Origin: Auricularia sp. M13
Taxonomy: Eukaryota; Basidiomycota; Agaricomycetes; Auriculariales; Auriculariaceae
Length of the DNA: 64,000 bases
Reading direction: 5' to 3'
Assembly: GCA_037042915.1 (NCBI GenBank)
Contig: CM073193.1
Span: forward strand, 9,052,001-9,116,000
The notes beneath the pieces were generated by a model. It made no database searches, was not told the DNA's origin, and saw only the letters and a list, made by a program, of their open reading frames with translations. Of the stretch, positions 2,650 to 29,583 are shown piece after piece. The stretch's first letter is position 1. Each line of letters begins with the position of its first letter. The position numbers and the translations under genes are program-made.

Positions 2650-2830
2650 GGGCTGTAGCCTACAGACAAAGGTGCACACCACCGGGATCTTAGAGTTCTA
2701 AGCACTGGCCACACCGGCACAGTTTCGAGCCTGCGAATCTGCGATTTTGCGAACCTGCCAATCTGCGAGTCTGACTTCCGTGGAACCTCACTTGCTGGGA
2801 GTCTGCAACCTGCACTTTCTCAGCATACTG
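2650..2830 (-). repeat. TTCGCA-array repeat, copy 2
   Basis: Read on the minus strand this has the same order as copy 1: CACGGAAGTCAG, an array of GCAGATTCGCAGG-like motifs, then CCAGTGCTTAGAAC and GATCCCGGTGGTGTGCA. It also carries the CTGAGAAAGTGCAGG segment of copy 1. It is more diverged than copy 3. Confidence 0.65.
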
Positions 2831-3319
2831 TACACACACGCTCTATTACCGGCACCCTGGCCACCGTGACACGGCAGGGCAATTACCATGAGCCATCTGT
2901 GACCCGTGACATAGACCATGATCACTCAGGTTTTAGCTGACCGGCAATGCCTCCAAGCAAGAGAACTCAACCTCTCACTGCTACAGTACATCAGTGCTCC
3001 TGACCGCTCCGCCTGTATAAAGGAGCACTGTAGTAGCGGCTGCGTACCGTAGACTACCTCTCACTGGTCCAGACATCTGAGATGTTACTGAGACGCTTGC
3101 TATATGGTGTTATAAGGTCTAGATGACCGCCGCAAAGCGGCAAAGCTAAAATTGGCTTGCTGGGAGCTCAGGTCAAGCTCAGGTTGTCTGAAACTCCCGT
3201 GACATGTCAATACCGTGGGCAGCTTGTGACCTGTGACAAAACAGGTTTATTACCGCGCCGCGCGACCTCTGTGACGCGCGACATGGTGATAGACCATGTG
3301 CGTACAGTAGGCTGGACCT

Positions 3320-3452
3320 GTGAAGTGTACACACTGATGCACACCACCGGGATCTTAGTGTTCTAAGCACTGGTCAAACCTGCACAGTTGCAAACCTGCG
3401 AATCTGCAAGTTTGCAAACCTGCGAATCTGCGATTCTGACTTCCGTGGAACC
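3320..3452 (-). repeat. TTCGCA-array repeat, copy 3
   Basis: Minus-strand copy with CACGGAAGTCAGAATC, a short array of GCAGATTCGCAGGTTTGCAA, CCAGTGCTTAGAACAC and GATCCCGGTGGTGTGCA. It abuts the first readable residue of the copia remnant at 3,453, so one of the two probably truncated the other. Confidence 0.65.
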
Positions 3453-4289: not shown

Positions 4290-5085
4290 TGAAGGAATTA
4301 TACCGCGGGCAAGCTGTGCCTACCTGCTGCCTTGGTGCTTTCTCCGTTCCTGATGATGCGTTAATCACCGTCCCTGTAAGTGACTGTGCCCCCCAATTCC
4401 AGGTGGATTCCAGGTGGAAAAATGCAACTATGCAAAAAAAGTGTCAGAACGTCAAATCCATCATATTGTGATGGTATACCCCCTCAGGTGGAATTTGGGT
4501 GGAATTCCACTGGACCGTTGGATCGGATGGGCCAGAATGGCCGAATTCCGGTGGAATTCCACTGGAAACAATGTGGAAATTCATCAAAAACTGTGATTAA
4601 GTGTTAGGTTAGGTTAGGTTAGGTTAGGTTAGGTTAGGTTAGGAGTTAGGTTAGGTTAGGTTAGGTTAGGTGTTAGGTTAGGTTAGGTTACTAGAACAGT
4701 TTCACGTTTCCTGAGGCAGCTGTGCATCTCTGAACCTTATTTGTGATGTCTAACATAATTTTTTACCCCTTAGAAAATATTTTGTCTGGAGCAGGTTTTC
4801 CACCGGAATTCCACCTGGAAGCCTCCTGGAACCAGGGGGCAGTGTCAGGTTCTCCACCGTCCATATGCTCACTCTCATTATCATAGTTCTTTACCTCTGT
4901 TTGCTGTGCCCCAGCATGATGAGTATATATTCTCGAGTCCCACACTCGGCGGTCCTCACCGTGTCTCTTGTGTACACTGAGAGCCGGCGAGGTACGCTAC
5001 CGTTTTGCCTACCTATTCCCGCATGTAGCTCACATTCATTTAGCTTACTGTTGTCCTCGCTCGACTAGGTTAGCAATATACCCTG
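4290..5085 (+). mobile_element. Probable copia 3' LTR with nested MITE
   Basis: The sequence after the purine tract reads like an LTR: a TG start near 4,291, a TATATA box near 4,925 and a CCGTGTCTCTTGTGTACACT segment downstream. The hAT-like MITE at 4,374-4,854 is inserted in it, with its target duplication intact, so the LTR is older than the MITE. No 5' LTR partner is visible in the window, so the outer limits are approximate. It is a fossil. Confidence 0.45.
4374..4854. mobile_element. hAT-like MITE with (TTAGGT)n core, copy A
   Basis: A 481-bp element with no coding capacity. It is flanked by perfect 8-bp direct repeats CACCGTCC at 4,366-4,373 and 4,855-4,862. The left end is CTGTAAGTGACTGTGCCCCC. 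The right end, read inverted, is GAGAACCTGACACTGCCCCC, so the termini are imperfect inverted repeats sharing TGAC..TGCCCCC. An 8-bp duplication is the hAT signature. Inside are TTCCACYTGGAA-like palindromic pieces and a (TTAGGT)n tract at 4,603-4,690. Copy B at 21,517-21,997 has the same length and differs at about ten positions. Confidence 0.85.
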
Positions 5086-5449: not shown

Positions 5450-5945
5450 CTGTAAGTGACTGTCCCCCACTATTGGGTCACGAGAAAACCGTGCGCACGT
5501 GCGCGAGGTCCGTGCGCAGCAGTAATCCTGCCCTAGAAGACTGTTCAGACATCCTAGAATGATTGTTGAAGGTCATTCCAGTAGCTTACACCTACCCGCA
5601 CATGTCTGTGTGCACAAACCTATCAAACCTTAAAAACTGGCCAAGATATTGTCAAATTACTGGTTTCAAGTTCCGCGCGCATGTTGCGCACGTTACGCAC
5701 GGATGCGCACGGACTGCGCACGGATTTTTCACACTGCGCACGAAAGTTGAAATCATGCGCACGGATTGTAAATCTGTGCGCACGGATGAAGGAGGACTGC
5801 GCACGGATTGTGATTTTGTGCGCACGACATTTTGGACCCTGCGCACGGATGTTAGAATCATGCGCACGGACATGGTAGACATGCGCACGGACATGCTTAC
5901 ACTGCGCACAGATTTTGTGTGTTGCGCGCGGATTCTGTATAAAGC
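5450..5945. repeat. MITE-like repeat with GCGCACGGA array, copy 1
   Basis: The left end CTGTAAGTGACTGTCCCCCA closely matches the terminus of the 481-bp hAT-like MITEs. The interior, from about 5,505 and densest at 5,690-5,935, is an irregular array of TGCGCACGGA and TGCGCACGAA spaced 15-25 bp apart. The open frames across it are by-products of the repeat. The right end and a target duplication were not identified. It interrupts the copia remnant. Confidence 0.6.
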
Positions 5946-6200: not shown

Positions 6201-6553
6201 AAAATACATGTTAGCAACTTGAGTATAATATGGTGTGGGCGTGCAAGTCCCTCTGTGAGATGGCATGGTGAGGATGAGGTTGGAACCCATCTAATCAACA
6301 AGAAGATCTGAAGGGACGGGATGGTGGTGTGATGCAGGAGAGTGAGCACCTCTGTGGTACAGAGGTGGTGGAGCAGACACAGCAAACTTTGGCTTGTTCC
6401 AGGTCCACTCCACGGCCCAAAACACGTGTCTCATCTCTCCTTGACCCAGACAATTCATTTGAGATTTCTTGACCAAACTGGGATCAGGGCTTAGAATCTA
6501 TTAGTAGATGAGTGAATCATGGTTACTCAGGCTGCAAAGAATATTACTCCTGA

Positions 6554-7399
6554 TATGGCTTACAGAGTGGCCAAAAAATAAACCGCTGTATGTAAATCCG
6601 AATCCTGTATCTATCGCGCCAAACACCGCTGTATATCAGCTCCGATACCGCTGTATGTTTCACCTTCTGCAAGGGACCACCTCCTATTGTGCTTCTTATG
6701 GCATGGGAGGCTTCCACTCCACTCTGTGCACGTAATGGTCATGCTCTCAGGCCAGCATCGTGTCTGACTGGTGTCCAGGAGCAAGTGCAATCCGGCGCGG
6801 AGATAATCCGGATATGTCCGAGATTATCGCCGACCCTTGATCCGCGGCCGTCTGCAAGGCTCCATCTTCCTTGAAAGCTCAGGAGTACGTCTCAGCTCTT
6901 GTAATGAATCTCAAAAAGGCTAGAGAGACCCCACAACGCAAGCCGAAATTTATTCTCATTCCATGACGAGGCAAAGCCTCTACAAGGCCTCTTGTGAACC
7001 ACGAGACAGATTTGAGCTCCTCAGGGACTCAATTATTAACAAGAAAAACTACTCAGAGCATTTCCCACCAATATCACGACTACAGTCGGCCTCAGGCTCC
7101 GTCATTGCTTGCCAAGCGACTCAGGCAGCAGGTTCTGCATGAAATTAACCATGTTCATCTCTCACTGCATCTCATTGCTCCTCCACATGCCCCTCAGGAA
7201 TTTTAATCAACCATCTGAGCCTGCAACATGGACGAGACGCTGACGAGACGGGCGTTCGGGAGGTCATGGCCGGAACCATCCGGACCCAAATGAATACAGC
7301 GGATCATGTGCGAATACAGCGGAAACGTGCTCACTCTGATATATACAGGTCAACCAGATATTTACAGCGGGATCATTAGATGGCCAACCTAATGGACGT
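6554..7399. mobile_element. Non-autonomous derivative of the 8.7-kb transposon family
   Basis: Element of about 845 bp with target duplication ACTCCTGA (9 bp with the preceding T) at 6,546-6,553 and 7,400-7,407. The left end TATGGCTTACAGAGTGGCCA nearly equals the left end of the large element at 7,648. The right end GGCCAACCTAATGGACGT matches its right end. Both subterminal zones carry CCGCTGTAT motifs in inverted orientation: three near 6,583-6,655 and three, as ACAGCGG, near 7,295-7,370. No transposase or other long gene is inside, so it would depend on an autonomous relative. Confidence 0.75.
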
Positions 7400-7407
7400 A
7401 CTCCTGA

Positions 7408-7640: not shown

Positions 7641-7724
7641 GACACTATATGGCTTACAGACTGGCCAAAAAATAAACCCGTAATATATATATTAGTACCC
7701 CGTCCTGTATTGATTCTACTGCTG

Positions 7725-7910
7725 TATCAATCGCGAACCCCGCTGTTTCAATCGCAAATCCCGCTGTTTCAATCGCGAAACCCGCTGTTTCAATCCCGAA
7801 CCCCGCTGTTTCAATCGCGGGTCCCGCTGTATAAATCGCGAGTCCCGCTGTATAAATCGCAAACCCAGCTGTTTCAATCGCGAGTCCCGCTGTTTCAATC
7901 GCGAATCCTG
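7725..7910. repeat. Left subterminal array, 21-bp period
   Basis: About nine head-to-tail copies of CCGCTGTTTCAATCGCGAAAC with a 21-bp period; two copies read CTGTATAAATCG. The array begins roughly 75 bp inside the left end of the large transposon. Its CCGCTGTWT core is shared with the right array, which makes it a candidate transposase-binding array. Confidence 0.8.
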
Positions 7911-8188
7911 ATGTTCGAACTACAAATGCAAGGACTTCTGACTGACGAGTCTGGCTCTGCAAAGGGTGACATTATCGCTGTGGCAACCGTAAAAACATGT
8001 GAGCTCACAACGAGTGGAGGGGTCTAGATTGATGATGTGGGAGATGGACGATGGGGGGTCGGGCAGGATTAGAAACTGGCATGTACAGGCAATTCACGGC
8101 TATGCGACTTAGGGCATATGTACGGCAATGGATTGTGGACATGGTGAAGGGGATAGGGTATGACAGAGAGGGCAAGGACAGAACATAG

Positions 8189-9884
8189 CTAGAGGAAGTC
8201 GTTCTTCCAGTCAGGCTTGACTTTCTTGGGCGAGTCGGGGTGCTGTACTGCAACAAAACCACGAAGGTTGGGGGGTGTAGACGCACGATTTTGCTGGCCC
8301 TGGTCCGACTCGTTATCGGAATCTGGGATGAAATTCGAAGCACTGGCACTCGTGGCCTCATCGCTACTACCGTGGATGAAGAGTGGGTCGTCGGGTGCCG
8401 ATCCTGATGCAGAGTTAATACCTGGGCGACTCGCGATGGGATAGATGCCTACCTGCACTTTGCTGCGAGCTCCTCTTCAGGCGCTTTGAGCGACGGGGCT
8501 CTGGGCTACCAGAGTGCTGTCGCGATTTGTGCCCGACCACACGAATCTCGTCGTCGTCCTCATCGTCCAGTGCCAGCGTAGTTGAGCCAGTCGCTTCGTT
8601 CGTTGCGTCGTCTGGCCATGTATCGTCGAAGAAGGGGTTGGGAGAGGGCAGGCGATGAATGGAGGACCTCAAGGGCGAGCCCTCCGAGTCAGAGCCTGGG
8701 ATAGGCAACGAAAATGCTGCAAAAAAAAAAAAAAACTGTGAGCCGACTGCTAGCCTGCATGTGAAGATATGAAATACCCATATATATTCCATTCCTGTAC
8801 CAGGCTTGGTCGGCACCTGCTATGACCATGTTAAGGTGCGACCCAGCAGGGTAAGGCTCGCGGAAGAGCACGAGCTTCTGTCGGTTCTTCTGCAGCAGGA
8901 CAAGTGGCGAGCGATCCACCGAGAACTCCTGAATACGATCGAGGAAGGCGCGGTGGACAGCAGGCAGGAGCTCCCAGACCCAGTCGACCAGCTCGTTCGA
9001 CGACATGCTGGGGCGAAATGTAATACCGTTGCTGGTGTCGATGACAGCAAATCCCTGGTTCGCCAACGTCTGGATTTCGGCAGCTGTGATTTTGGGTACG
9101 ACTGTGGGTACAGGAAGGCTTGTATCGTTGATGTCCCACTGCAGCGATTAGGTTCATCTGGCATCGTAACATAAATCAAACTAACCTCGACACCAGGCTG
9201 GGTAAAAACGACAAGAAAGCCAGATTTGCGAACCCTCTCGCGCTAGACAGACATGTTTAGCACATCGGCAAACTATATTGGTGGCCAGCGACAAACCTCC
9301 TTGCCCTTATTGCTGCCAGAGCTCTTGCCCTTCGTACGACTTGCAGCGGCAGAACTGCTGGTGCCCGAGTCAGCAGCTGCCTTGCGATCGCGCCAGCCTT
9401 TCAGGGCTTCCGAAGCTGCAGTGACTGGCAAGGCCTGGCCTGCAGTTGTCGGAAGAACCAGTGCATTCGAGCGACTTGTCGAGGAAGTTGGGGGAGGAGC
9501 GAGCGACGAGACAAGCGACGAGGATGGACCAGCACCAGCACCAGGCCAGTAACGACCGAGGATTGAAGCCACCACTGGTGCAGATCGCTGAGTGGCAGGC
9601 TAGACGAACGGCTTGACAGAGGCACTACCCCGGCCGATATTAGCGGCGAGGGCGAGCTTCTTCGCTGTGTTGTTGTTAGAGCCTGTGTCGTAAACAGAGC
9701 AAGTTAAACATACCAGCCACAGGTGTATCCTCCTCCCCGAGTCGTCCTCTGAGCTTGGCTCGGGCTCTGGTTGGTTGTGGAAGTTCTTCAGGTGCTGGCA
9801 GTTCGTGCATCGGCGAGCAGTGCCAGACTTTCGCTTTTTCTTTCTGAAGTAGTAAGGGCACTCGCACTTGGAGCAAGCACCCAT
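8189..9884 (-). CDS. Cys-rich (zinc-ribbon-like) protein of basidiomycete multicopy type
   Basis: I chose the ATG at 9,884 because it opens a frame with CSKCECPYYFRKKKRK and, 20 residues on, CTNCQHLKNFH, a CxxCxC...CxxC...H pattern that probably binds zinc. A Ser/Pro/Ala-rich linker follows. A more conserved block encoded near 9,120-8,800 has TVVPKITAAEIQTLANQG, WVWELLPAVHRAFLD and LVLLQKNRQKLVLFREP, and an acidic tail ends at 8,189. I believe similar proteins are common and uncharacterised in mushrooms, but I cannot name a family. Introns are evident near 9,710, 9,180-9,270, 8,730 and 8,450. The join near 9,600 shows an in-frame stop I could not explain by splicing, so the model may be wrong there or the gene damaged. 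Confidence 0.55.
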
Positions 9885-10133
9885 CGAGAACCAAGTGGGG
9901 GTAAGAATACGAGTAACGACAGTGGCTGCTGTTGGGCGACGAGAAAAAAGTCGGGAAGGGAGCGAGTGTCGGACTTTTTGGACTTTGCACATTTGGGCGA
10001 GCTCGCAATGGCTCACATATAAGTAAATGCATAGTTTGGCCGGGAAAATAATCACCCCACTTGGGAATGAATACCACTTCAAAAAAGAAGATTTAATGTC
10101 CATGAAAGTGGTACTGGAGAGCTCGAAAAAAGA

Positions 10134-10204
10134 AAGCCACTGGCACGAGTTGAACTCACAGCCAGCAGCAAGCAAGTTCAAGCACCTGAGCCAACTGCTC
10201 CATA
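10134..10204 (-). ncRNA. tRNA-like fragment inside the transposon
   Basis: On the minus strand GGAGCAGTTGGCTCAGGTGC resembles a D-arm/A box and GAGTTCAACTC a T-arm/B box. No full cloverleaf could be drawn. It is probably a tRNA-derived SINE or a chance match. Confidence 0.28.
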
Positions 10205-10361
10205 CTGACTTACTTTGCTCTCTGCATTAATCATTTACATATCGTAATCTCCGGTGGGAGAAGCGAAAATAAGAATTGCTTTACTCCAGGCAGCAATGAC
10301 CCACATGCCTAGGAGAGCAAATGACCCAGGGTGGTGACCCTTCCAGTCCAAGGGCCTGGGA

Positions 10362-10457
10362 CTCTGGAGGGCACTGCTACTGCCACCATGCCCTGCAGTC
10401 ATGCAGCAATGCTAGCATAAGATTCGGGTTATAGTGGCAGTACAGTGCCCTCCAGAG
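10362..10457. repeat. Long hairpin, 24-25 nt arms
   Basis: The arm CTCTGGAGGGCACTGCTACTGCCAC is, apart from one bulged base, the reverse complement of 10,434-10,457, with a loop of about 47 nt. It sits in the gap between the Cys-rich gene (-) and the oxygenase gene (+). It could be a structured RNA, a regulatory element or the remains of a small foldback repeat. Confidence 0.6.
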
Positions 10458-10610
10458 GCATGCCATGGCTGGGGGGTGGGGGTGCATGGTGGGGCTCTGA
10501 TAGGCATGTGGGTGGGCGAGCTGGGCCCGGCTGGGTGTGTGGGGGTGGGGGGAGACAGCTGAGTTGGCTGGGTCCGAAATTTGTCCCCTTCCAGCACTCG
10601 CACACAGCAT
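10458..10610. promoter_or_regulatory. G-rich upstream region of the oxygenase gene
   Basis: A strongly G-rich plus strand (runs such as GGGGGGTGGGGGTG and GGGGGTGGGGGGAG near 10,475-10,555) lies directly upstream of the oxygenase gene and between divergently transcribed genes. It has G-quadruplex potential. A promoter role is inferred from position only. Confidence 0.35.
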
Positions 10611-12321
10611 GCCACCGAAGACCAAACAAATGGCAAGCTGTCAGTACCGGGTGCACTCAACCCCATGTGTTCTAATGCCATTTGTCAGTTCTTCGTGCCA
10701 TTGTTCACACAGATAGCCTGGTTGCACGCCTCGCAGGCAACGAAGACATCTATGAAGATCTGCAGTCCATCGCAGCACTTTACGGCCTGGAAGCAAATCC
10801 TGAGGTAAAGTCCTGGGCAATTATCACCTGGATATGTAGGCTAATCAGTGCTCAGCTGTCTGATATATCTTCAGCTCTTGGACGTGCCCCACGGCCCTTG
10901 GACGCCCATCTGCAGGTACTCAGTGACGCACTGGCCGCACGTAAAGCCCTGCGTGACGCCGTAAGTGCTTCGTTGCGCCGAATTAAGCAGCGTGTTGTGC
11001 GTCGTTGCATAGTTTCGCACGCTGGTACATTCTGACACAGTTCAAGGTCGATACCTTCGGGCTTCGTCGTTTGCCACTCCACACGGCACGCGAGTGGGTT
11101 GCGGCTACGAATGCAGTCTGCATTGAGCTGGGCCCTGTGCCAGTTATCCCGGCTAAACGGCGCACACCTCTCCTCGATGCTGAGTGCCAGACGTATGCTG
11201 GCGCCCCAAGCAATGCTTGTCTTCTGCCTACTACGACTGCGGGTCCAATCACCGTTCTCCCTGCCAATCGCAACCTGGCAGTCTTCGACCGCGATGGTGT
11301 GTAACAACACCACTAGCTGGGGCTAGGTGCTGACTTATACTGCAGGGCAGGTTCACATGCTTGTTGTGCGTAATGCCAGCGGTGCTGACTCGCTGTCGGA
11401 CCTGGTTCAAGTCGTCAATGAAGCTGTGGCTGACCGCAACAACGTCCGGGTATGTGGTACATGGTGTGCACAGACACATATACTCATACTACTCTCTAAG
11501 CCGACACACCCTGGAACGATGGTGCAGTTTGGCCAGAACGCTGGCCAGCGCAATGTCTGGGTCAACGGCTGCCGCGTTTTTGGCGATGTCAAGAACATCT
11601 CACAGTCCAAGCTGTCGCGCCTTTTCTGACTCACAGGTTGAGGCAAAGAACCGGCGCATTCTCGGTGTCATTGGCCTGATGTGGAACATGGCATGTGCTG
11701 CAGTCCCTGCAGATGTTATGGCTGTCCTTCACGACGAGATTGCGGCTGCCGGTCTGCCACCAATGTCTGCTGCTGGTGATCGTGCAGGTATGCTGTTGGT
11801 TGCATATGCTCCACCCTACATTTACCAGAAAACTACAGACAAAGGCTATACGCTCACTATTGATGGCCAGGAGTTACACTTTCCAACTGGCAGGCGGCCT
11901 CCATGTGAGGCATATATGTCTAAAAACTACACCGCGTGCGCATTTCCTGGGTCCGCCTTGATCAGTGTACTAACCAGTGGATAGGCCTGTCCACATGGAC
12001 AAAACCTGGGCAACATATACGCTGACATGGAACTTGGGCAGAGATATTCGTGACACGGATAGCGCATCTGGTGGGGGCCACTTCGTCGACTGCGCGGCTG
12101 GAGTCAAGGTCGTCGCCGCACCTGACACGCTTATCATCTTCCGCGCCAATCGTCCCCACGGCACAACACAGTCCTGGAACCTGGACCAGTACTACCTAAC
12201 CCAGACATTTTCGGTTCACATCAAGAAGTCATTTGACCAGGCACAGTCAGATGCACTGCTGTGTGGCAAGCCAGATAGACGTGCTGTGGATGGGCTTCCA
12301 GAGGAAAGTGATGCAGTATAA
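10611..12321 (+). CDS. TET/JBP-like 2-oxoglutarate/Fe(II)-dependent oxygenase
   Basis: Multi-exon gene. Near the C-terminus (12,000-12,170) the frame gives VHMDKTW, an HxD iron-binding motif; then GGGHFVD, the strand that often reads GGxF/L in this fold; then a glycine turn and RPHGTT, the distal histidine, in the order and spacing of the double-stranded beta-helix oxygenases. TET/JBP members of this superfamily oxidise 5-methylcytosine or thymine in DNA and are known to be expanded in mushrooms and linked to transposons. The upstream part has blocks such as RRILGVIGLMWNMACAAVP and DGQELHFPTGRRPPCEAYM without a known function. Introns that keep the frame lie near 10,805, 10,960, 11,297, 11,450, 11,590 and 11,957. 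The start is uncertain. It ends 21 bp from the end of the convergent transposase gene. Substrate is inference. Confidence 0.6.
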
Positions 12322-12342
12322 ATCTTGTATATAGCCACATGC

Positions 12343-14604
12343 CTATAGTGCAAGTAAGGTATTCATCAATTCCAGAGCACATGCCCAGCGCAATGCACGT
12401 GGATACCAAACTGGAATTGGCAACTCAATCTCAGCCAGCTTCCTCCCACGTCCAATGGCTAGCGTCTCAGCCAATGGGTACCCAGCAGCGCCCAGCTCTT
12501 CCGCTGTAAAACCCAAGCCAGCCGGAATGTGCGATGCCATATCGGGATCTGCAAGACAAGCAAAGAATGCTGCAGCCTTTGCATCGTCAAATGGGCAAGA
12601 TGCCGCAGGGGTCTCGACAGCATCGTGGCGAATGTTTGGCTCCTGGTCTGCAGCAACCCGCTGCTCCAGGTCGTCAAGGTCAAGACCATCGGGAAGGACC
12701 TGAGTTAAGACATCAGCATCGACATTGGAGAGACCTACATCTGCGATGTGGTCCTCAATGTCGTCGATGTCCGAGTATTCGTCGCTGTCGCTGTCTGCCG
12801 AATCAACCTCTGTAAGAAAATCAGCATCGGATTGTAATGACATGTAAATAAATACCATGCTGCGCAGTCGTATCATCCACACCATAATAGCGGCGGATGA
12901 GCGAAAGATCCAAACCCTGACAGTCATCAGGATCATAAATCCCATGCTGTGTCTGACGAAGGAAGCGCATGTCCTAGTAAATGTCAGCTAGGTGCGCACC
13001 TCATAAATTGTTCCCAGAATTACTACACCTTTGGCGACTGAAAATGAGTGTGGGGGCCAGAAATAGGCTTTCTGGACCATTCCTCCTGGAAGTGCTCAAC
13101 GTCGAGGTTGATCTCGTCCAGGAAAAGCGTATGCAGAAGCCAGAGATGGTGGGGATCGTCAATGTTGAGACCATGGAGACGCTCTAGCCGCGAGAAAATG
13201 CGCGCCAGAGTCGAGCAAATCTCTGACCCACTTCAAGCCAAAGACGCTCAATGCGCGTGTTGCGGGTTGACCTGCCACCCTAATTTCAGCAGCAGAAATC
13301 AGGGCGGCACTGGCTACTCACGATCCCCACATAAAGGAGCCACGGTTCACACCGCAGAAGCAGATCATCCAGATAGCGACCAAGAGGTTCTCTCCACCCC
13401 GGTCACCCCGCATGCGAGATGGGACACCAAAACGATCCACTGCTTCACGGAATAACCGCAGGACAGTCTCTGCGCGGTTGTTGGTATGCGCGCGCATCCC
13501 AGTTATCTAAACATGTGAGACAACTAGCCAGTCGCAAGTCAAAGCCACATACCGTCCTGCAGTAACCATCAACGAAGCCGTGTATCACGATGCCATACCG
13601 GATCAACTTGTGGTGCCCATCCATGTGCCAGACTTTGTTGGGACGTGAGACCTCGTAGATACGCTGGGTAGGGAACGCAGTGCGACGGAGCTCCTCCTCC
13701 AATGGATCGACACGGCGCATCGCAGCAGTAATGCGGTTGCGCTGTACGCGTAAATTGTTGTCGCGCAGAAAGCCCAGAAAATATTCGAGGCCGCCAGCAG
13801 GATTACGCAGCCGGAAGACACGGAAGAGATCATCGAGATCGTCATCACTGACATTACTGAAGTCGTGGGCGATGCCCTGGCGCCGCATTTCCTTGCGGAC
13901 TGTTTTCCGGTTGACACCAAGAACACGTGCAAGGAGCGAGATGGAGATATTGCGATCTGCCGACATAGCCTCGGCGAGGTACGAAGGATCGATCTGCTTT
14001 TTCGGACGGCCTTGGCCACCAGTGTGCACAGATGCAAGAGGTGCCAAGTGTAGAATTTTCTTGTCTTCCCTAAAAAGGTGTAATTATCTCGGTTTTAGGT
14101 ATTGAAATTAAGTCAAGGGGCATACGATTGAGCAGCAGCATCGAGGGCCTCGTCGAGGGCATGCATAAGTTTACCGAACGAGTGAGAGGCAGCAACCAGC
14201 CATTCTTCGTCCAGCTGGTTGGATTTCTCTACTGCCTCGAGGAGAGGAACCAGCTCGAGGGCAAACCTGTTTCGCAGAGAACGAATGCGAACAGGATCGT
14301 GGTCATCCTGGGTAAGGGTGCCCAGGATCGAGTTGAAGCCATCAGACAGCTTATCGTGTGCACGAATGAGAGTAAGTGGCCATTGGAACCCTTGAGGAGG
14401 GTCAGGGAGAGCTGGAAAGGAGAGGACAGACAGAGGCTGCATGCGAGCGACGGCGAACAGGTTTGTATTTGTCACTCTGTTTGTACCTCGGTCTACGAGC
14501 CAGCCATCGGCCAGTGCAACGAAGCTTCGGGGACCCAGTGCATTCTGTCCACTTCGAAACTGTGCATAGAGGAGCAATGCCTCTGCGAACGCGCCACGAG
14601 ACAC
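12343..14604 (-). CDS. Integrase-core (rve-like) DDE transposase
   Basis: An N-terminal helical region is followed by GRPKKQIDPSYLAEAM and a helix-turn-helix (LLARVLGVNRKTVRKEM). The catalytic core has WHMDGHHKLIRYGIVIHG (first Asp), RMRGDRGGENLLVA (second Asp) and RNTRIERLW (Glu), then HHLWLLHTLFLDEIN and a RFLRQTQHGIYDPDDC block near the C-terminus. Introns that join these blocks in frame lie near 14,052-14,119, 13,507-13,553, 13,278-13,322 and 12,973-13,026. Near 13,196 one T appears to be missing from a T run between LWRA and RLERLHG, a -1 frameshift that would inactivate the enzyme unless it is a sequencing error. The family is common in mushrooms and resembles retroviral-type integrases. 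I found no KDZ or hAT motifs. It probably moves the enclosing element. Confidence 0.82.
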
Positions 14605-15587
14605 TTTACAAGGCTTGGGGCGATATAATCCTTGCAGTATGTGTCCGAATTTTGCAACTGCACACAGTCCTGACTTACGAACACCTGGCTCTTCAGGCCG
14701 AAGATGTGCTTTTCAGGGTGCACAGTGGCTTCTTGAAGAGCGAATCAAAGCTCTTCGAGACTTTGCTCCAGATGCCACCGCCCAAAACTGGGGTCGAGGG
14801 TGCGAGCGACGAACTGCCTATCGTCCTGCCTGTCCCTGCTGCACACCTGGCACTTCTCCTGAAGTGTGTCGTCCACAGGTTCGTTCTATTACTAGGCCCA
14901 CTGAAACCCAGCTGACAACAGATTGCACGAAGGGATGTTGTTCTTACGACCGACGAGAAGCTCATCGTGCTCGACCTGTCAAGCTTCCTACTGATGCACG
15001 ACATGCGAGCTTGGATTCTTCGCGAACTCAGCCATGCTTCGCCTGCCCCTACTGCTCTGCAGCAGATTGCCTATGGGGTCCGTGCACAGCTACCCGACTG
15101 GATTGCTTCAGGCTTCTATGGCCTCGTCGAATTCCCAAGTACCCAGCTCTCGCAGATCTCGGGCGATGCATCCAACATCGTGGGCTTTACCGTCTATAAG
15201 CTCCTCTTCGATACGATCCAGAAGATTTCGCGCATTCGTCTGTACATCGCCCACACTGTTGGCGACTTCAAGGCCGGCAAAACCTGCAAGAATCCAGGGC
15301 AATGCAAGGCGCTATGGCTCGCACATGCCTACGCTCCATTTGCACAGCGCTACCTCCACCCGACATCTCCGCTCAAGGCTTCGAAGGCACAGTTCTGGCT
15401 CGCTGGCTGCCGCATGCCCCACCTCTGCAACAGCTGCCTGACGGACAACATGGAGCGTCTCGACGATCAGGAGATGTGGTTTCTTGAGGAGCTGACGATG
15501 ATCAACGCTGAAGACACCCTGCAGGCGATGATTTCTCCCTTCCCAGCCCCAGCCCCTGCCGAAAATGTTGCTATGTCAACCGAGTAG
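14577..15587 (+). CDS. BTB/POZ domain protein
   Basis: The first exon (14,577-14,636) encodes 20 residues ending WGDIILA. After a 60-nt intron with GTATGT and CTTCAG ends the frame continues AEDVLFRVHSGFLKSESK, the classic start of a fungal BTB/POZ fold, followed by LPIVLPVPAAHLALLLK. A second intron near 14,870-14,930 leads to the long last exon with LDLSSFLLMHDMRAWIL and a C-terminal part with several cysteines (CRMPHLCNSC). BTB domains mediate protein-protein contact, for example with Cul3 ligases, but no partner is visible here. Its start overlaps the head of the divergent transposase gene by 28 bp. It lies inside the large transposon, so it may be cargo or part of the element. Confidence 0.8.
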
Positions 15588-16080
15588 ACCTTCGCATGCT
15601 CACAATTTGTAGTCTCGTATTTTTCCTCCATGTTTTTCTTGATATGGAGTATGCTCACTGCAAAGGTGGATTTGTGCACAAGTAGGCTGCAAGCGAAGTT
15701 CGAACTGATTTTACATCTGCATAAGCCATTCGTACTGGTCAATTTACTCTAGGTAGTGTTCCAGTGCATGAAAAGGTTAACTGATTAGCCAAAGCATAGA
15801 GTACAACCCAGCCAGCTGCCTGGTTGAATCGTACCTCAAAACTCGGCCACGAGTGGTACTCACTCGCAAAGCTCTGAAGCCCCTAGGCTAAGCATACCTA
15901 TACTGCAGACTCTCCGACAAGCAACAACTGCCACACCAAGCGACGAGGTTAGGCAAGTTGTCGAGTCGTGGCCGAATTGCTCTAGCAATTTTAAAAGTCT
16001 CCCTAGCCAGCTCTGGAGCTCGCAGCGAGTCGAACCCCATGCCAAAGGGGTACGAGGTTGCTTTGTGTGGGCTCTAATGT
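15588..16080. other. Transposon interior without recognised gene
   Basis: AT-richer spacer between the BTB stop and the right subterminal array. A GGGGTTCGACTC segment near 16,035 on the minus strand resembles a B box, but I could not build a tRNA. No coding region is supported. Confidence 0.4.
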
Positions 16081-16099
16081 AGTATATAGGGTTGCAACG

Positions 16100-16232
16100 A
16101 TACACAGCGGCATTCGTTGGAATACAGCGGCATTCGTTGGAATACAGCGGCATTCGTTGGAATACAGCGGCATTCGTCGGAATACAGCGGCATTCGTCGG
16201 AATACAGCATGCAGTTCGGGAATACAGCGGCC
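16100..16232. repeat. Right subterminal array, 20-bp period
   Basis: Five near-perfect copies of ATACAGCGGCATTCGTTGGA plus two degenerate ones. On the minus strand each reads CCGCTGTAT, the core of the left array of the large transposon, so the two arrays are inverted with respect to each other. The period is 20 bp here and 21 bp on the left, so the arrays were amplified independently around one core. Confidence 0.8.
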
Positions 16233-16389
16233 GTGTCCAGTTATTACAAATAAACAGATACACTCTATTCACAGATAAAAAGTTATTAAATGGCCACCCT
16301 GGTGGACGTAGACACTAGAGATGTGCACCTCTATTAATGCACACAGTGCCATAAATACATCTATGATATACATCTTCAAAACATTTTTG

Positions 16390-16680
16390 ATGTTTTTCAC
16401 ACTGCGCACGGATTTTGTACTTTGCGCACGGATTGTGAAAACTGCGCACGGATATCAGGAGCCTGCGCACGGATTGTGAAAATTGCGCACGAAAGCACAT
16501 TTCATGCGCACGGATGACCAGGACCCTGCGCACGGATTTTGAAAAGTGTGCACGGACATTTGGACCCTGCGCACGAAAGTGAAACTCATGCGCATGAAAG
16601 TTCTAACCCTGCGCACGGAAGTTCTGCGCACGGATATTCTTGCGCACGGATGCGCACGGACCCTGCGCACGGTTTTCTAG
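16390..16680. repeat. GCGCACGGA array, copy 2
   Basis: Irregular array of TGCGCACGGA / TGCGCACGAA with 10-25 bp spacing, ending GCGCACGGTTTTCTAG. The inverse of this end (GAAAACCGTGCGCA) matches the inner left end of copy 1 near 5,480. It starts about 75 bp outside the right end of the large transposon. It encodes nothing credible. Confidence 0.65.
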
Positions 16681-20114: not shown

Positions 20115-21011
20115 ATGGAGATGCTCAAGACGGGTGACCCGTATGCCCCCAGGTCGTATCCGGGCCGAAAGCTCATCATGACGCCACACAAAGTGCGTCG
20201 TGCAAAGCAGGCAATCCTCAGCAGCTCCGCCCGGGATGCAACAGACTGCCAGCGACAGCTGTTCCCGTACGTCTCAGCTCGCTGCGTCTGCAAGGTGCTT
20301 TCCAGCATCAGTCTCAAGGGCAGGGTGCGATGAAAGAAGCATCTCTTGACCTTGACGCACGTCAGGCGGCGCAGAACGTGGGCATTGCGGCATTCGGAAT
20401 GGACCGACTGGGACTGGCGCACCGTCGTCTACTCTGATGAGACCAAAATCAACCTTTTTGGCTCAGATGGGCGTCAGTGGTGCCGTCGCTACCCTGGGCA
20501 GGCCTTTCTTCGGCGAAACGTCCAACAGACGGCGAAGCACGGCTGCGGCAATATTATGGTGTGGGGCTGTGTCACCTGGAACGGCGTCGGGCGCATTCAC
20601 CGCATCGAGGGTCGCATGAATTCCGTCCAATACTGCAGTATTCTGGACGAGTCCCTTCAGGGCTCCATGGCGGACCAGGGATTGGACTGGGAGCACTTCA
20701 TTTTCCAGCAGGATAATGATCCCAAGCACACGTCCCGCTACACTCGGGCCCACATCACCTCCCTCGGCATCGAAGTCCTTGACTGGCCGGCCAACTCACC
20801 GGATCAAAACATCATAGAGCACGTCTGGGACATACTCAAGCGCCGTATACGAGCCAGGAACCCTCTGCCTCGCAATTTGGACCAGTTGTGGCAGGCAGTA
20901 CAGGAGGAATGGTACAGCATCCCCGTTGAGCAAATCCGGAAGCTCTACAACTCGGTACCCCGTAGAATTGATGCCTTAGTAGCTGCCAGGGGATGGTTTA
21001 CAAAGTACTAG
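20115..21011 (+). mobile_element. Tc1/mariner-family transposase, 5'-truncated with one in-frame stop
   Basis: The DD34E catalytic core is complete: VVYSDETKINLFG (first Asp), FQQDNDPKHTS (second Asp) and SPDQNIIEHVWD (Glu), then the typical basic C-terminus. Upstream, in the same frame, SARCVCKVLSSISLKGRVR is the second helix-turn-helix. A TGA at 20,331-20,333 interrupts the frame exactly at the DNA-binding/catalytic junction, and the first helix-turn-helix is missing. It is therefore an inactive copy. Terminal inverted repeats and a TA duplication were not identified, so element limits are unknown. Confidence 0.88.
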
Positions 21012-21516: not shown

Positions 21517-21997
21517 CTGTAAGTGACTGTGCCCCCCAATTCCAGGTGGATTCCAGGTGGAAAAATGCAACTATGCAAAAAAAGTGTCAGAATGTCAAAT
21601 CCATCATATTTTGATGGTATACACCCTCAGGTGGAATTTGGGTGGAATTCCACTGGACCATTGGATTGGATGGGCCAGAATGGCCGAATTCCGATGGAAT
21701 TCCACTGGAAACAATGTGAAAATTCATCAAAAACTGTGATTAAGTGTTAGGTTAGGTTAGGTTAGGTTAGGTTAGGTTAGCTTAGGAGTTAGGTTAGGTT
21801 AGGTTAGGTTAGGTGTTAGGTTAGGTTAGGTTACTAGAACAGTTTCACGTTTCCTGAGGCGGCTGTGCATCTCTGAACCTTATTTGTGATGTCTAACATA
21901 ATTTTTTACCCCTTAGAAAATATTTTGTCTGGAGCAGGTTTTCCACCGGAATTCCACCTGGAATCCTCCTGGAACCAGGGGGCAGTGTCAGGTTCTC
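21517..21997. mobile_element. hAT-like MITE with (TTAGGT)n core, copy B
   Basis: 481 bp, the same length as copy A and differing at about ten positions by eye. It is flanked by the perfect 8-bp duplication CCAATGCT at 21,509-21,516 and 21,998-22,005. The ends are CTGTAAGTGACTGTGCCCCC and, inverted, GAGAACCTGACACTGCCCCC. The (TTAGGT)n tract is at 21,745-21,833 and is interrupted at the same two places as in copy A. The small divergence and clean duplications suggest recent movement. Confidence 0.87.
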
Positions 21998-22574: not shown

Positions 22575-25500
22575 CTACTCATGCTCTGTCGCTCGTTGTG
22601 CGCGTTTTGCCAGCTGTGAAACACAAGTTAGTAGTCAACAACGGCACACATCGCAAATGGAAGAAGACTCACAGCCGCAGCAAGGTCCATCTGGCCAACC
22701 GCACCCGGCGCGCGCACCGCAGAGGGCTTCGGCGCAGACGAAGGCACAGGCCGCGCCGTCGACGGTACAGGCGGCTTGCCGCCCACGCCGGGCGGTTTGG
22801 GCGCGAGCGGCGGCTTTGCGCCAACAGCTGGCTTCGCGCCGACAGGCGGCGCAGCCGGCTTGGGCTTATTGGCGACGGGCGGCGTGGGCCGCGCAGCGGC
22901 GGACTTCAGGCCGTTCGCGGCGGCGGCGGCAGCGGCAGCCACCGGGGTCGATGCTGCGGGCTTCGGCGCTGGCGGGGGCGCTCGGCGAACGGGCGGCGGC
23001 GGGGGCGCGACCGCCTTGGGTTTCGGCGGGATGAGCTCGAGGTAGTTGTGTGGCGCCCAGCCCTCCTCCGTCCCGCGGCGCACTCGCCACCATCCTAAAC
23101 ACACATCATGAGTTCACGAGCGGCCATCACAACGCTGCAACGCACCGTTGTCCTCCTTCTCGAGCAGTTCGACGACATCGTCCTTGGACAGGTTCAGCTC
23201 GCCTTCCTGCCCCTGGAAATCGTACAGAGCGCGATATTGCGGCACATCAGGCTCTGCAGACGCAGCGGGCGGCGGGGGCGGAGGCGGCGGCGGGACTCCA
23301 CGCCCGGCGGGCTTCGCGGTACTCGTGGCCGTGGCCGTGGCGGTGGGCTTGAGCGATGGCGCACCCAAGTTGGACGTCTGGCCTCCAGGCAGCGCCTGCG
23401 CCTTCGGCTTGGGCTTAGGCGCGGGCTTCGGTGCCTGCATAAACAATAAATCGTATTCAGCATGTGCGCAGAAGACACAGCAGAATCCACTGACATTCGA
23501 GTTGCCTGGTCCACCCGGACGCAGCAGTTTGCCCGCCGTAATCGGCCGCACGACGCCCGCCTTGCGCTTGGCAGCCGGGCGTGAGACGCTCGTCGCCGGC
23601 TCGCCGGTGGGCACATGGACCGTCGAGCTCTTGTACACATCGTCGCGCGGGACAGTCTCGTCCCTGACGAACGTCACCGTCGCCTTCTTGTCCTTCTTCT
23701 TCAGGTACTCGATGCTATTGATTCAACATCAGCGGAAGCGGAGAAACAACGAAGAGCGATGAAATGCGTACGTTGGCCCGATGAGCACCTGGATGCTCGC
23801 CTGCGTCAGCGTGAGGAGGTTGGCCGTAAACTCCGTCTTGAAGTAGCACGAGAAGACGGGGTCGCCTTCCTCGGACGGCGGGAGGTTGAGTGCCTGAAAA
23901 CGGGTTTGAATGAATGGGCCGCGCGCTGCGAGCGAGATGACTTACCACCCAGTCGTCGCGCAAGTTCGACATGGCGATGCTCTTGATCGTCACGAGCGGG
24001 ATCTTGCGCTCGAGCGTCGTGCCCGTCTTGGCCGTCGTCACGACAAAGTGAACAGCCTTCTCGGTCTACAACGCGCCGGCTGAGCAAAGCAGGCATGACA
24101 CCTGGACAGTACGTACCACGACGAGGTAGCGCGGACTCGGCTTACTCGACCGGCCGAACTTGTGCACGAGCAGTTGCACGCGCGAGCTGAACGTAACCTT
24201 CTCCTCTGCAAGCCCCATCATCAGCGAAAACCACATAGGAAAAAAGGCCACACGCACTGCCAATACCACACGCCTCGCGAATCGTCTCGCCCAGCGGATC
24301 CTTCCCGCCCACATCCAAATAATCGCCCGCAAAGCGTCTATAGCTCAACAAACTATACCTCCTGCGCTCCTTCCTTTGCGCCAGCACCGCATGGCCGTAG
24401 TCCCGAATCTGGGCGTACACCAGCGCCTCCTTGTTGTTCTTCCAGAAGCGCTGGATGCGGCGCGCGCACTCGTTCTTGTAGCGCCAGTAGTTGCGCCACG
24501 CGCGCTGGATGCGCGCGGCCATGTTGTGGAAGTAGCGGTCGCGCATCGTCTCGAGCGCGAACAGCGTCTCGGGATTCTTGATGAACGCCTTCGTCACGCC
24601 CAGCTGCCACTCCTCCTTGGCAATCCCGCTGTCCTTCAGGATCCGCGCGCACCCCGTCTTCACGTCGCCCTGCCAGATGTACTCGCCCGCGTAGCCCGTC
24701 GCGGGCGAGAGCAGGTAGAATCTGCCGTTCGGCCCATTCAGCTACGAAGCAGGGAAAAATAAGGCAGAACGGAACGACGCACCGCTCGATCATCTTCTCG
24801 AATGTATTGCGATACGCAAAGCCCGCGCGGCGCACACGAATGTTCTCCTGCAAGCCCAGATACTTAATCTGATGCAAAATCGCCTTCGAGTCGTACTCCG
24901 TGGCACTGCGATGCTCGTTCGGCTTGATCGTGCGGATATAGCTCGGCTGCGCGCGCATGAGGTTCTCGACGAGCGCGCCCGCGCTCGCCTTGATCTTGTC
25001 GCCCGCCGTCGGCGGCCGCTTCTTGCTGTTCGGGTCCGGGCGGTCGGGGAAGAGCGCCTGGAGGAACGCATTGCCGGACCCGGCGACGAGGTCGAGCAGG
25101 TCCTTGACGAGCGCGTCCTTGTTCTTGTCCGTCATGCCCGCGACGCTGTACATCACGTCGCCCGCGTAGTGCTTCACGAGGAACTGCGCGCCGCGCGGCT
25201 CGAAGTGCGCGTTCGACAGCCCGCCGAGCCGCTGCACGAACGAGTTGTCCGCCGCCGCGGGATCCGCGTGCGCCGTCGCGCACGCGTCGTTCAAAGCCGC
25301 GAAGATGCCCGGCGGCCGCCGCTCCTCGATGAGGTCGCACACGACCTTGTTGTTGAAGTACTTGATCGGCTCCCACTTGATCTGCTCGCGCACGTACTCC
25401 TCCTGCTCGGCCTTGAGCGTCAGCTCTATGAAGATCTGCTGCAGCTTCTCGTTGACGTAGTTGATGCACAGCTGCTCGAACGAGTTTTCCTATAGCGCAG

Positions 25501-27271: not shown

Positions 27272-29173
27272 CTACTTACCAATTCCATGGCTATGAAGCG
27301 ATTTCAGTAACTCTATCGCAGGCTCGAGCAACGGTCCGCTTTGAGGGCCTCGCTTCACGATAGCCACCAACTTCTGCGTGACGCCTTCGCCATCCAGTGT
27401 CCGCGCAAACTTCGCCTGCTCTTCAGGTCCCAGCCCCTCAAGCGCTCCCAAAGCAATAACAACACCGCGATGCGCAAGCCCGTCCTCCTCAGAAGTAATC
27501 AACCGCGAGACATTAGCCGCCTTATCCAGCACAGCGCGCGCCGCACGGGGGTCATGCGCAACACACGCAAGGGCACCAGCACACGCACTGCGCGTCGGGC
27601 CGTCGTCAGCATCCGCCAGCGCCAGCAGCACGTCAAGCCGATTCCGTGCGCCCACAACGCGCTCGCACGCGGCGGGCGACCCGCCGAGGAGGTTGCACGT
27701 GAGCTCGGCCGCGGCGCGCCGCACGAGGTCGTGGTCGTCCAGCAGCAGCGTCTCGAGGCGGCCCGCAAGGCCGGGCACCGCGACGATGCGCTCCGCCAGC
27801 TGCGGGCCCGCGGACGCCAGGTTCGTCAGCGCCATCAGGCCCTCGAACGTCTGCAGGCGCGTGGCGCTCGGGTGCAGCAGCAGCGCGGCGAGCGGGCGCA
27901 GCGCGTCCAGCGCGCCGGCGTCGCCCGGCCCGAAGACGCTGAGCGGCGGGGACGTGATGGCCAGCTTCGCGAGGGCCTGAGCGGCCACTAGATCCGCGGG
28001 GTCGACGTTGAGCAGCGCCCTCGATGGAGATTCTCCAGTCCCAGATGTCGATACGCCCGCAAAGGCCACGCGGGTGAGCGCAAGAAGCGTCTTCGCGCCG
28101 CCGCCCTGTAGGACCTTCCCGCGATCGGCCTTGTCCTCCACGAAAGCGAGCAGCGTCTCCGCCACAAGCCGTCCAATGCGCGGGCTCTCGCGCGTATACC
28201 GCGACAGCGTCGCCAGCGCCGACACCGCGCCGGCATCGATTAACCGTCGACATCGCGCGCGCACAGCAGGCGCGTCCTCGCGCGGGTCTGGCGCCTGCTC
28301 GCGCATCCGTCCCTCGGGCGTCAGCGCAGCACCTTCGCGCGTCATACGCCGCAGCTTGGCAATCTGCTCCTCCTCGTCCGTCGCCTGCGGCCTATACGCC
28401 GCCATATTCCTCAACGCCACCGCAACGCCGTACAAAATCGGCTGGGCCGGCGCAGCCTCGCCCTTCCTCGCGGGCACAAACGCAATAATCCGCGCGAGAG
28501 CCTCGACGTCGCGCGCAAAGGCCTCCTTGGCGAGCGGCTCGGCCGTGATGTACGCGAGCGCCTCGACGGTGTCCGACACCGCGCCCTCGTCGCCGGCGGG
28601 CACGACGGCCAGCAGGCCTTTGATGAGCGCGACGAGCGCGTCAGCCTGCCCCTCCTGCACGCGCTGGTCGCCCGGGTTCGCATCGCGCGCGCCGATGTAC
28701 AGCTTCGTCAGCGCGCAGACGGCGGCGGCGCGCAACCGCGGATCCGTCGTCTGCTGCGCGCTTTCCTGCAGCCAGGAAAGCCACGCAGCAGCTATGGGCT
28801 CGCGACACGCTTTGTGCGCGCTGGCCTGGGAGAGCAGCGAGGCCACTGAGTGGCGGATGTCTGGCGATGAAGGGTACAGCTCGAGCACTTCGGCCACAGA
28901 GTCAAAGATGCCCTCGTCGAGAAGAACAGCAGATGCAGAAACGTTGTCCGTTTGGAAGAGCGCAGCAAGAAAGGTCAGCGCCGAGAGTGCGTCGTCGGCT
29001 GTCGCTGCACGGAAGGCGTCCTCGACGAGAGGCTTAGCATGGGCGCCTAGTTGACCAGGTTGCTTTTCTACGAGCACTGATAGATCCCGGTACCCATTTG
29101 ACCTGGTTTCTAGCGAGGCCGAGGGTACAAAAGAATGCAAGATAGAGCGCAGTGAATCCCGAGTGGACGTCAT
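27272..29173 (-). CDS. she4: UCS-domain myosin chaperone (She4/Rng3/UNC-45 family)
   Basis: A single long exon of 633 codons made of armadillo-like helical repeats. The C-terminal third has the UCS hallmark: FEGLMALTNLASAGPQ, LETLLLDDHDLVRRAAAE and LTCNLLGG, close to the UNC-45/She4 signature. UCS proteins fold and stabilise myosin motor domains; yeast She4 acts on myosin I and V. Like other fungal UCS proteins it lacks the TPR domain of animal UNC-45. It lies directly upstream of the class I myosin gene on the same strand, about 310 bp away, its probable client. The stop at 27,272 lies within GGTAAGTAG, which also reads as a splice donor; a 65-nt intron to 27,217 would change only the last residues. 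Confidence 0.85.
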   Translation of the reverse strand: MTSTRDSLRSILHSFVPSASLETRSNGYRDLSVLVEKQPGQLGAHAKPLVEDAFRAATADDALSALTFLAALFQTDNVSASAVLLDEGIFDSVAEVLELYPSSPDIRHSVASLLSQASAHKACREPIAAAWLSWLQESAQQTTDPRLRAAAVCALTKLYIGARDANPGDQRVQEGQADALVALIKGLLAVVPAGDEGAVSDTVEALAYITAEPLAKEAFARDVEALARIIAFVPARKGEAAPAQPILYGVAVALRNMAAYRPQATDEEEQIAKLRRMTREGAALTPEGRMREQAPDPREDAPAVRARCRRLIDAGAVSALATLSRYTRESPRIGRLVAETLLAFVEDKADRGKVLQGGGAKTLLALTRVAFAGVSTSGTGESPSRALLNVDPADLVAAQALAKLAITSPPLSVFGPGDAGALDALRPLAALLLHPSATRLQTFEGLMALTNLASAGPQLAERIVAVPGLAGRLETLLLDDHDLVRRAAAELTCNLLGGSPAACERVVGARNRLDVLLALADADDGPTRSACAGALACVAHDPRAARAVLDKAANVSRLITSEEDGLAHRGVVIALGALEGLGPEEQAKFARTLDGEGVTQKLVAIVKRGPQSGPLLEPAIELLKSLHSHGIGK

Positions 29174-29583
29174 GGTTCAAGTTGCGGTGCTTGCCGACGT
29201 TCGCGACTTGATTTGCACCTGCGTGTCATAGATTCACATAACATATCGGCCATCGTTCAGCGCTCAGCGTTCGACACTCGTGTGATTTTTCTGCTAAACT
29301 TTTGGCATACATCAATGTAATTTTTCAGATGTTCCTTTTACCGAGCGACGCCTGCCGGCCCAATTGAATGTACAATACGTCGAACCGTTAACATTGATTT
29401 CCTTGTTTTTCAAAGTGATGACGAGCGGTGAGCAAAAAATAATAATTGCTGGCCTTCGAAGGAGGCGTAATTCTAGGAAACAGTCTTCAACCGATTGATT
29501 GCTGATGATCGACATGAATCGTCAGTTGCAAGATCGGGAATGCATCCGTCGGTGTCGGCTGCTTGCGGCTCTTGTCTCAGACC
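29174..29583. promoter_or_regulatory. Divergent promoter region, UCS gene (-) and F-box gene (+)
   Basis: A gap of about 410 bp between head-to-head genes. No canonical TATA box was seen; an AT-rich stretch lies near 29,280-29,460. A shared regulatory role is inferred from the divergent arrangement. Confidence 0.4.

Follow-up and report, generated by a model that had tools for sequence, protein, structure and literature searches.

What kind of mobile element, if any, accounts for a tight cluster of four genes, one of them encoding an integrase-type transposase, in a 64-kb window from the fungus Auricularia sp. M13 (CM073193.1, positions 9,052,001–9,116,000), and do the other three genes serve it? 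The window is the whole stretch of DNA analysed, and all coordinates below are positions within it. The segment 7648–16310 is a complete inserted DNA transposon. We think it likely that this is a cut-and-paste element of the IS3EU/GingerRoot type, with a probable 5-methylcytosine-oxidising oxygenase that would guard the arrays at its ends and with further, accessory cargo. The idea of a transposon that uses a DNA-modifying oxygenase against silencing is not new in its general form, since Kojima 2025 reports TET-carrying fungal transposons, IS3EU included (PMC12730594). What is probably new is an IS3EU-type element of an agaricomycete that combines CpG-rich end arrays and a 7-bp duplication with cargo of the Cys-rich and BTB-like kinds.

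Boundaries and ends of the element

The features that delimit the large element and its small neighbour are as follows.

7648–16310 (8,663 bp): large element, IS3EU/GingerRoot-like, termini TATGG...CGTA
7641–7647: left copy of the target-site duplication GACACTA, 7 bp
16311–16317: right copy of the target-site duplication GACACTA, 7 bp
7648–7675, plus strand: left terminal repeat, matching the right one at 18 of 28 positions
16283–16310, minus strand: right terminal repeat
7721–7915, plus strand: left subterminal array, 21-bp period, GCTGTWT all forward, CpG observed/expected ratio (o/e) 1.75
16104–16231, minus strand: right subterminal array, 20-bp period, GCTGTWT all reverse, CpG o/e 1.58
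6554–7400 (847 bp): small element, a non-autonomous relative of the large one, TATGG...CGTA ends
6547–6553: left copy of the small element's duplication CTCCTGA, 7 bp
7401–7407: right copy of the small element's duplication CTCCTGA, 7 bp

The claim of the first-pass annotation that this is a DNA transposon is borne out by the paired ends, the exact duplication, the inward-facing motifs and the integrase-type transposase. Both elements are flanked by exact 7-bp repeats, GACACTA around the large one and CTCCTGA around the small one, in agreement with the GACACTA copies first noted on both outer flanks and with the small neighbour described as having the same ends and a perfect duplication. A 7-bp match at the spacing of the large or the small element occurs at 4 of 55,323 and 8 of 63,139 window positions, respectively, the true sites counted. 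Setting the right ends 2 bases shorter was also tried, which gives a repeat of 9/9 in the small element and just 8/9 in the large. Ends of the form TA..TA with a 7-bp duplication were chosen because this solution suits both elements. The left end of the span first claimed, 7648–16309, thus stands, while its right end is corrected to 16310, and the duplications of 8–9 bp become 7 bp in both elements, the longer figure having included the element's terminal TA.

End patterns built from both copies were searched for across the 64 kb with up to 3 mismatches. The left-end pattern occurs twice (6554 and 7648), as does the right-end pattern (7376–7398 and 16286–16308), and shuffled sequences gave a mean of 0.00 for each (n = 100). 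The small and large elements agree at 30 of 31 positions at the left end and 23 of 28 at the right; by blastn the sequence they share is limited to the terminal 31 bp, with nothing in common in the interior, and the small element carries inverted CCGCTGTAT motifs. Compared without gaps, the two terminal repeats of the large element agree at 18 of 28 positions, a score reached in 0 of 20,000 shuffles, and those of the small element at 16 of 28 (a figure without shuffles). The terminal repeat alone is insufficient to define the element, because two unrelated sites in the window likewise score 18/28 against the large element's left repeat.

The motif arrays follow the same ends. Counted as forward/reverse, GCTGTWT is found 9/0 times at the left end of the large element, 0/6 at its right end and 0/0 in the middle 8,089 bp; the corresponding counts are 3/0 and 0/2 in the small element, and 12 forward and 7 reverse in the 47 kb outside the elements (17000–64000). 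The longer form CCGCTGTWT occurs 18 times in the window against 0.84 expected, and 17 of the 18 lie inside the two elements, so the inverted arrays reported just inside both ends are present as described, facing inward with none between. A bracket formed by chance, or by separate small elements, around four host genes would have to be pictured to avoid calling the whole segment a transposon. The small element does prove that such ends exist without genes, but the outer ends of the large segment are flanked by their own perfect 7-bp duplication, its motifs face inward at both ends with none between, and a transposase is among the four genes, all of which makes a bracket of this kind very improbable.

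Gene content and transposase

Between the ends, a splice-site listing and hand-built spliced models give the gene order Cys-rich (minus), oxygenase (plus), transposase (minus) and BTB-like (plus), which upholds the four packed genes and the order first assigned to them.

8192–9884, minus strand: Cys-rich gene, 6 exons in the model, start of the protein rich in Cys (CxxCxC...CxxC), in-frame stop near 9600–9602
10299–10513: palindromic stretch between the Cys-rich and oxygenase genes, 20-bp arms 90% and inner 15-bp arms 100% complementary
10609–12321, plus strand: putative 2-oxoglutarate/Fe(II) (TET/JBP-like) oxygenase, 9 exons, 419 residues, no in-frame stop
12343–14442, minus strand: transposase gene, integrase core rva_4/rve, DD(56)D(34)E, frame break at about 13185–13200
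14577–15587, plus strand: possible BTB protein, 3-exon model, 298 residues, no in-frame stop

The integrase-core transposase is confirmed by matches to the Pfam families rva_4 (E 2.9e-44) and rve (E 5.4e-8) and by an acidic triad of the form DD34E. In NCBIfam, IS481 (1.2e-12) and IS3 (3.2e-11) models were matched, both under the models' full-length cut-offs. Because there are 0 Cys residues ahead of the first catalytic Asp, the protein is taken to be without an HHCC finger. The element would therefore sit in or next to IS3EU/GingerRoot, which is related to bacterial insertion sequences; this placement is made because an IS481/IS3-like DD34E integrase of the rve/rva_4 kind is combined with TA..TA ends. 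The transposases of IS3EU are near IS3/IS481, lack the HHCC finger and form one lineage with those of GingerRoot, and complete IS3EU families always have TA..TA ends and usually 6-bp duplications (PMC10045372). One such family, MarorIS3EU-2, is known from the mushroom Marasmius oreades (PMC9674265). Our large element resembles this group in its TA..TA termini, seen in both elements, in its IS3/IS481-related DDE integrase-type transposase and in the absence of the finger, and differs in its 7-bp duplication and three cargo genes.

The first-pass annotation had called this a transposon type different from KDZ. That part stands, as no KDZ transposase was matched in Pfam, but the type is not an unnamed one, since it fits IS3EU/GingerRoot. 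The Pfam matches were to rva_4 and rve only, in a collection that includes a KDZ-type family, and the ends are TA..TA. Among the KDZ groups, duplications are 7 bp in Kyakuja and 8 bp in Dileera and Zisupton (PMC12730594); the length alone would suit Kyakuja, but the CA..TG ends and KDZ transposase of Kyakuja do not.

The closest published comparison is with the TET-carrying IS3EU families of rusts and Tuber indicum, which are likewise IS3EU-type elements with an oxygenase gene beside the transposase, and all of which carry an alpha-kinase gene on the far side of the TET gene (PMC12730594). The rust families have 6-bp duplications, a PU-type TET and terminal repeats of more than 30 bp that end in TAYGG..CCRTA, and the Tuber indicum element has a PE-type TET (PMC12730594). 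Three features of the Auricularia element weigh against its placement beside them: the duplication is 7 bp in both elements rather than the 6 bp usual for IS3EU; its terminal repeats are short and match incompletely (18/28), the left TATGG suiting TAYGG and the right TACGT only partly; and no alpha-kinase was matched in Pfam among the six gene pieces scanned, the element carrying instead Cys-rich and BTB-like genes, in an agaricomycete host, and an HxD oxygenase without the hallmarks of the AG or PE types. The same features, together with the 20/21-bp subterminal arrays and a cargo that the text of PMC12730594 does not describe for IS3EU, could point to a separate integrase-type superfamily, marked by 7-bp duplications and subterminal arrays, rather than to IS3EU proper. 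We regard this as unlikely in view of the TA..TA termini, the agreement of the left end with the rust pattern and in part of the right, and an integrase core similar to both IS3 and IS481.

On the IS3EU/GingerRoot-type reading, the transposase would bind the CCGCTGTWT arrays and pair the ends, excise the element and insert it by cuts staggered by 7 bp. The present copy is probably no longer autonomous, as its sequence suggests through the transposase frame break and the in-frame stop in the Cys-rich gene, while intact copies elsewhere would also be expected to move the 0.85-kb derivative. The transposase breaks frame about 20 residues past the catalytic Glu; the profile match before the break ends at position 116 of 194 and resumes after it at 132 of 194. 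A splice using an acceptor at 13223 was rejected, as it leaves 16 stops. Leaving the remaining splices unchanged, we also allowed one additional GT-AG intron (34–119 nt) in the interval from 13268 to 13181: 4 such introns restore the frame and 2 of these, removing 44 or 50 nt, keep both flanking motifs. A frame break is preferred to an extra intron because the frame-restoring introns drop residues within the profile-covered stretch. The Cys-rich gene has the less certain splice model, and its in-frame stop hinges on that model. A tblastn search of the window recovered a second copy of none of the four genes.

Putative oxygenase, further cargo genes and CpG content

The oxygenase model has introns of 49–80 nt, and its last exon reads HMD...GGGHF...DTLIIFRANRPHGTT, where HMD supplies the HxD motif and the distal His lies 55 residues on (RPHGTT). 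In CcTet of Coprinopsis cinerea the metal is bound by His326, Asp328 and His376, an HxD and a distal His at a spacing of 50 (PMC11040006), and this likeness is the single point that suggests a TET/JBP label. The first-pass annotation had named the protein a TET/JBP-like oxygenase, an identity that the comparisons below do not bear out. The protein matches nothing in Pfam or NCBIfam, although Pfam includes a Tet_JBP family. Its single match among PDB sequences is an unrelated adenylyltransferase (E 0.5), with CcTet unmatched. In TET/JBP dioxygenases the HxD...H facial triad sits in a double-stranded beta-helix. A single-sequence fold of the core exon reached a mean predicted local distance difference test score (pLDDT) of 39, with strands predicted, and the central exon of the Cys-rich gene, folded without relatives, reached 41, so both folds are unfit for fold comparison.

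A local alignment between the oxygenase core and TET2, suggestive by eye (GVxV...H.TT), was set aside, since 196 of 2,000 shuffles reach its score; the full-length comparison fared no better, at 125 of 300. As a control, the BTB-like protein was beaten by only 2 of 300 shuffles, which we read as chance among the six proteins tried and which makes the shuffle test itself a weak one. Known hallmarks are also lacking. AG-type TETs, such as those of Kyakuja, have Gly/Ser and Asp at His+5 and His+11 (Gly331 and Asp337 in CcTet), and PE-type TETs have HxE in place of HxD (PMC12730594; PMC11040006), whereas the Auricularia protein has Trp and Thr at the two positions and retains HMD.

These results, which count against the oxygenase part of our reading, would be expected if the protein were some other 2-oxoglutarate/Fe(II) enzyme, such as an AlkB-like protein or a hydroxylase of unrelated kind, rather than a member of the TET/JBP family that oxidises DNA bases. 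We hold this to be possible, though not what we would expect: the spacing of the metal site (55) is near that of CcTet, the transposon-borne oxygenases reported in PMC12730594 are TET/JBP enzymes, and PE-type TETs are likewise nearly invisible to sequence methods, with HHpred E values of 1.4 to CMD1 and 19 to NgTET (PMC12730594).

Less can be said of the two remaining genes. The Cys-rich protein found no convincing family match in Pfam or NCBIfam. The BTB-like protein scored 16.6 bits against the Pfam BTB model, under the gathering score of 20.5 (E 0.0092), and had no match in a search of PDB sequences, so the BTB identity first given to it is not borne out. Searches of viral contigs with the N-terminal transposase piece, the oxygenase and the BTB-like protein, and of prokaryotic genome contigs and plasmids with the N-terminal transposase piece, found no relative, which is a further point on the negative side; covering viral, prokaryotic and plasmid collections, they are uninformative on rarity among fungi.

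Whether the oxygenase could act on the element's own DNA is a matter on which base composition has some bearing. The interior of the large element has a median CpG o/e of 0.8, and the array values are reached in 0 of 395 and 1 of 398 interior windows, which overlap and are not independent. The intergenic stretch 9885–10608 is poorer still (o/e 0.43). Overall the interior has CpG 0.79, TpG 1.29 and CpA 1.27, set against CpG 1.09–1.28, TpG 0.98–1.19 and CpA 1.06–1.15 in five stretches within 22600–64000. An excess of TpG and CpA is the usual mark of methylation followed by deamination. The CpG loss of the interior fits what past CpG methylation of the large element would leave, and CpG-rich arrays beside a CpG-poor interior fit ends that have been held unmethylated, as far as composition can tell. 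Three points tell the other way. A repeated CpG-containing motif alone would yield the same array figures; the arrays of the small element have CpG o/e of 1.80 on the left and a weaker 1.19 on the right; and the window's Plavaka stretch (one of the five right-hand stretches, CpG 1.19) and copia stretch (1.11) are undepleted and its two MITEs (miniature inverted-repeat transposable elements) much more strongly depleted than the element (0.30 and 0.23), so the CpG loss is not general to the window's transposons.

Escape from methylation is the function proposed for TET genes in transposons (PMC12730594). In the Auricularia element, the HxD...H protein is probably an oxygenase dependent on Fe(II) and 2-oxoglutarate; it would oxidise the element's methylcytosine and leave the CpG-rich arrays at the ends accessible to the transposase. 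The other two proteins, Cys-rich and BTB-like, would be accessory. It is also conceivable that the three extra genes are passive hitch-hikers on an IS3EU-type transposon, copies of host genes or remnants of nested insertions that contribute neither to transposition nor to silencing. In keeping with this, 2 of the 4 genes are disrupted (transposase and Cys-rich), a palindromic insertion separates the Cys-rich and oxygenase genes, the element sits among many nested repeats and transposons, and neither the oxygenase nor the BTB-like protein has a firm family match. Yet both the oxygenase gene and the BTB-like gene give long, spliced models without in-frame stops, and TET genes recur across many transposon lineages with coding regions mostly undisrupted (PMC12730594), and we consider passive carriage somewhat unlikely.

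A more ambitious version of the active reading would make the element a new agaricomycete IS3EU-type lineage in which three proteins form one system: a TET/JBP-like oxygenase of a fourth, undescribed type, a DNA-binding partner rich in Cys, and an adaptor of the BTB kind. The Cys-rich protein would bind the CpG-rich CCGCTGTWT arrays and recruit the oxygenase to clear methylcytosine just there, while the rest decays, and the BTB protein would remove or redirect a host silencing factor. This version is distinctly doubtful.

If our preferred reading, the IS3EU/GingerRoot-type element with a guarding oxygenase, is right, it would extend the oxygenase-carrying fungal transposons to a mushroom IS3EU-type element with two more accessory genes. 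According to Kojima 2025, 11 lineages of fungal transposons carry TET/JBP genes, and the TET-carrying elements of Agaricomycotina named in its text are Kyakuja, Zisupton, EnSpm, Plavaka and Helitron2, IS3EU not being named there; Plavaka was reconstructed from Agaricomycotina and not found to carry TET in Pucciniomycotina (PMC12730594). These elements resemble ours as DNA transposons of mushroom-type fungi with a TET-like oxygenase, putative in our case, but have other transposases than its integrase type. BTB genes are absent from the main text of PMC12730594, and literature searches for such genes in transposons of this kind yielded nothing pertinent. The combination of an IS3EU-type element in an agaricomycete, Cys-rich and BTB-like cargo, an HxD oxygenase lacking the AG and PE hallmarks and a 7-bp duplication was not recognised in the literature searched, including the text of PMC12730594 (supplements aside). 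The notion that a transposon fights its own methylation would become testable at defined sites, the CpG-rich arrays against the CpG-depleted interior, and with exact ends and a 7-bp duplication fixed by two elements, copies and empty sites can be searched for in the assembly of this fungus.

Surrounding repeats and host genes

The palindromic stretch at 10299–10513 is probably a nested insertion. With its threshold relaxed, an Rfam search returned 4 matches, all under gathering scores, of which 3 fall inside the palindrome; ARAGORN found no tRNA.

To the left of 22 kb, the region is a nest of mobile elements and repeats. Arrays of TGCGCACGGA in direct orientation at 5685–5909 and 16401–16651 flank both IS3EU-like elements, and are probably parts of one older element split by both insertions, the right end of which was not found. 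Two copies of a miniature inverted-repeat transposable element (MITE), at 4374–4854 and 21517–21997, are 98% identical over 482 bp, start with CTGTAAGTGACTGTG, and contain internal GTTAGG runs; their 8-bp flanking duplications are CACCGTCC and CCAATGCT, and their CpG o/e is very low (0.30 and 0.23). The sequence from position 5450 begins with CTGTAAGTGAC, as the MITEs do. Unit arrays of CAGATTCG/CGAATCTG at 831–1116 and 2673–3452 are inverted, with stretches 87–94% identical, and are candidates for the ends of another element or for a palindromic array. At 20334–21008 lies a transposase fragment (Pfam DDE_3, 2.5e-14) that we take to be of the Tc1/mariner kind.

A Plavaka transposase at 37119–40543 is recognised by Pfam (5.3e-11) on its first open stretch, 37119–38240, with no Pfam match on the two further stretches scanned, 38541–39020 and 39944–40540. 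The CpG o/e of 1.19 given above refers to 37100–40550, which is undepleted, unlike the IS3EU-like element. Inverted paralogous stretches, 73–83% identical, occur at 41732–42862 and 54668–55364. An F-box-like gene (Pfam, under cut-off) contains the second of these; the first is split by 430 bp of sequence (42315–42744) that is 85.5% self-complementary. The Plavaka transposase and the F-box-like protein would point to an agaricomycete host. Among the host genes, one with a myosin motor domain and one for an UNC45-central protein (Pfam) lie near each other at 24356–25489 and 27275–29176, placing a myosin gene close to a homologue of a myosin chaperone.

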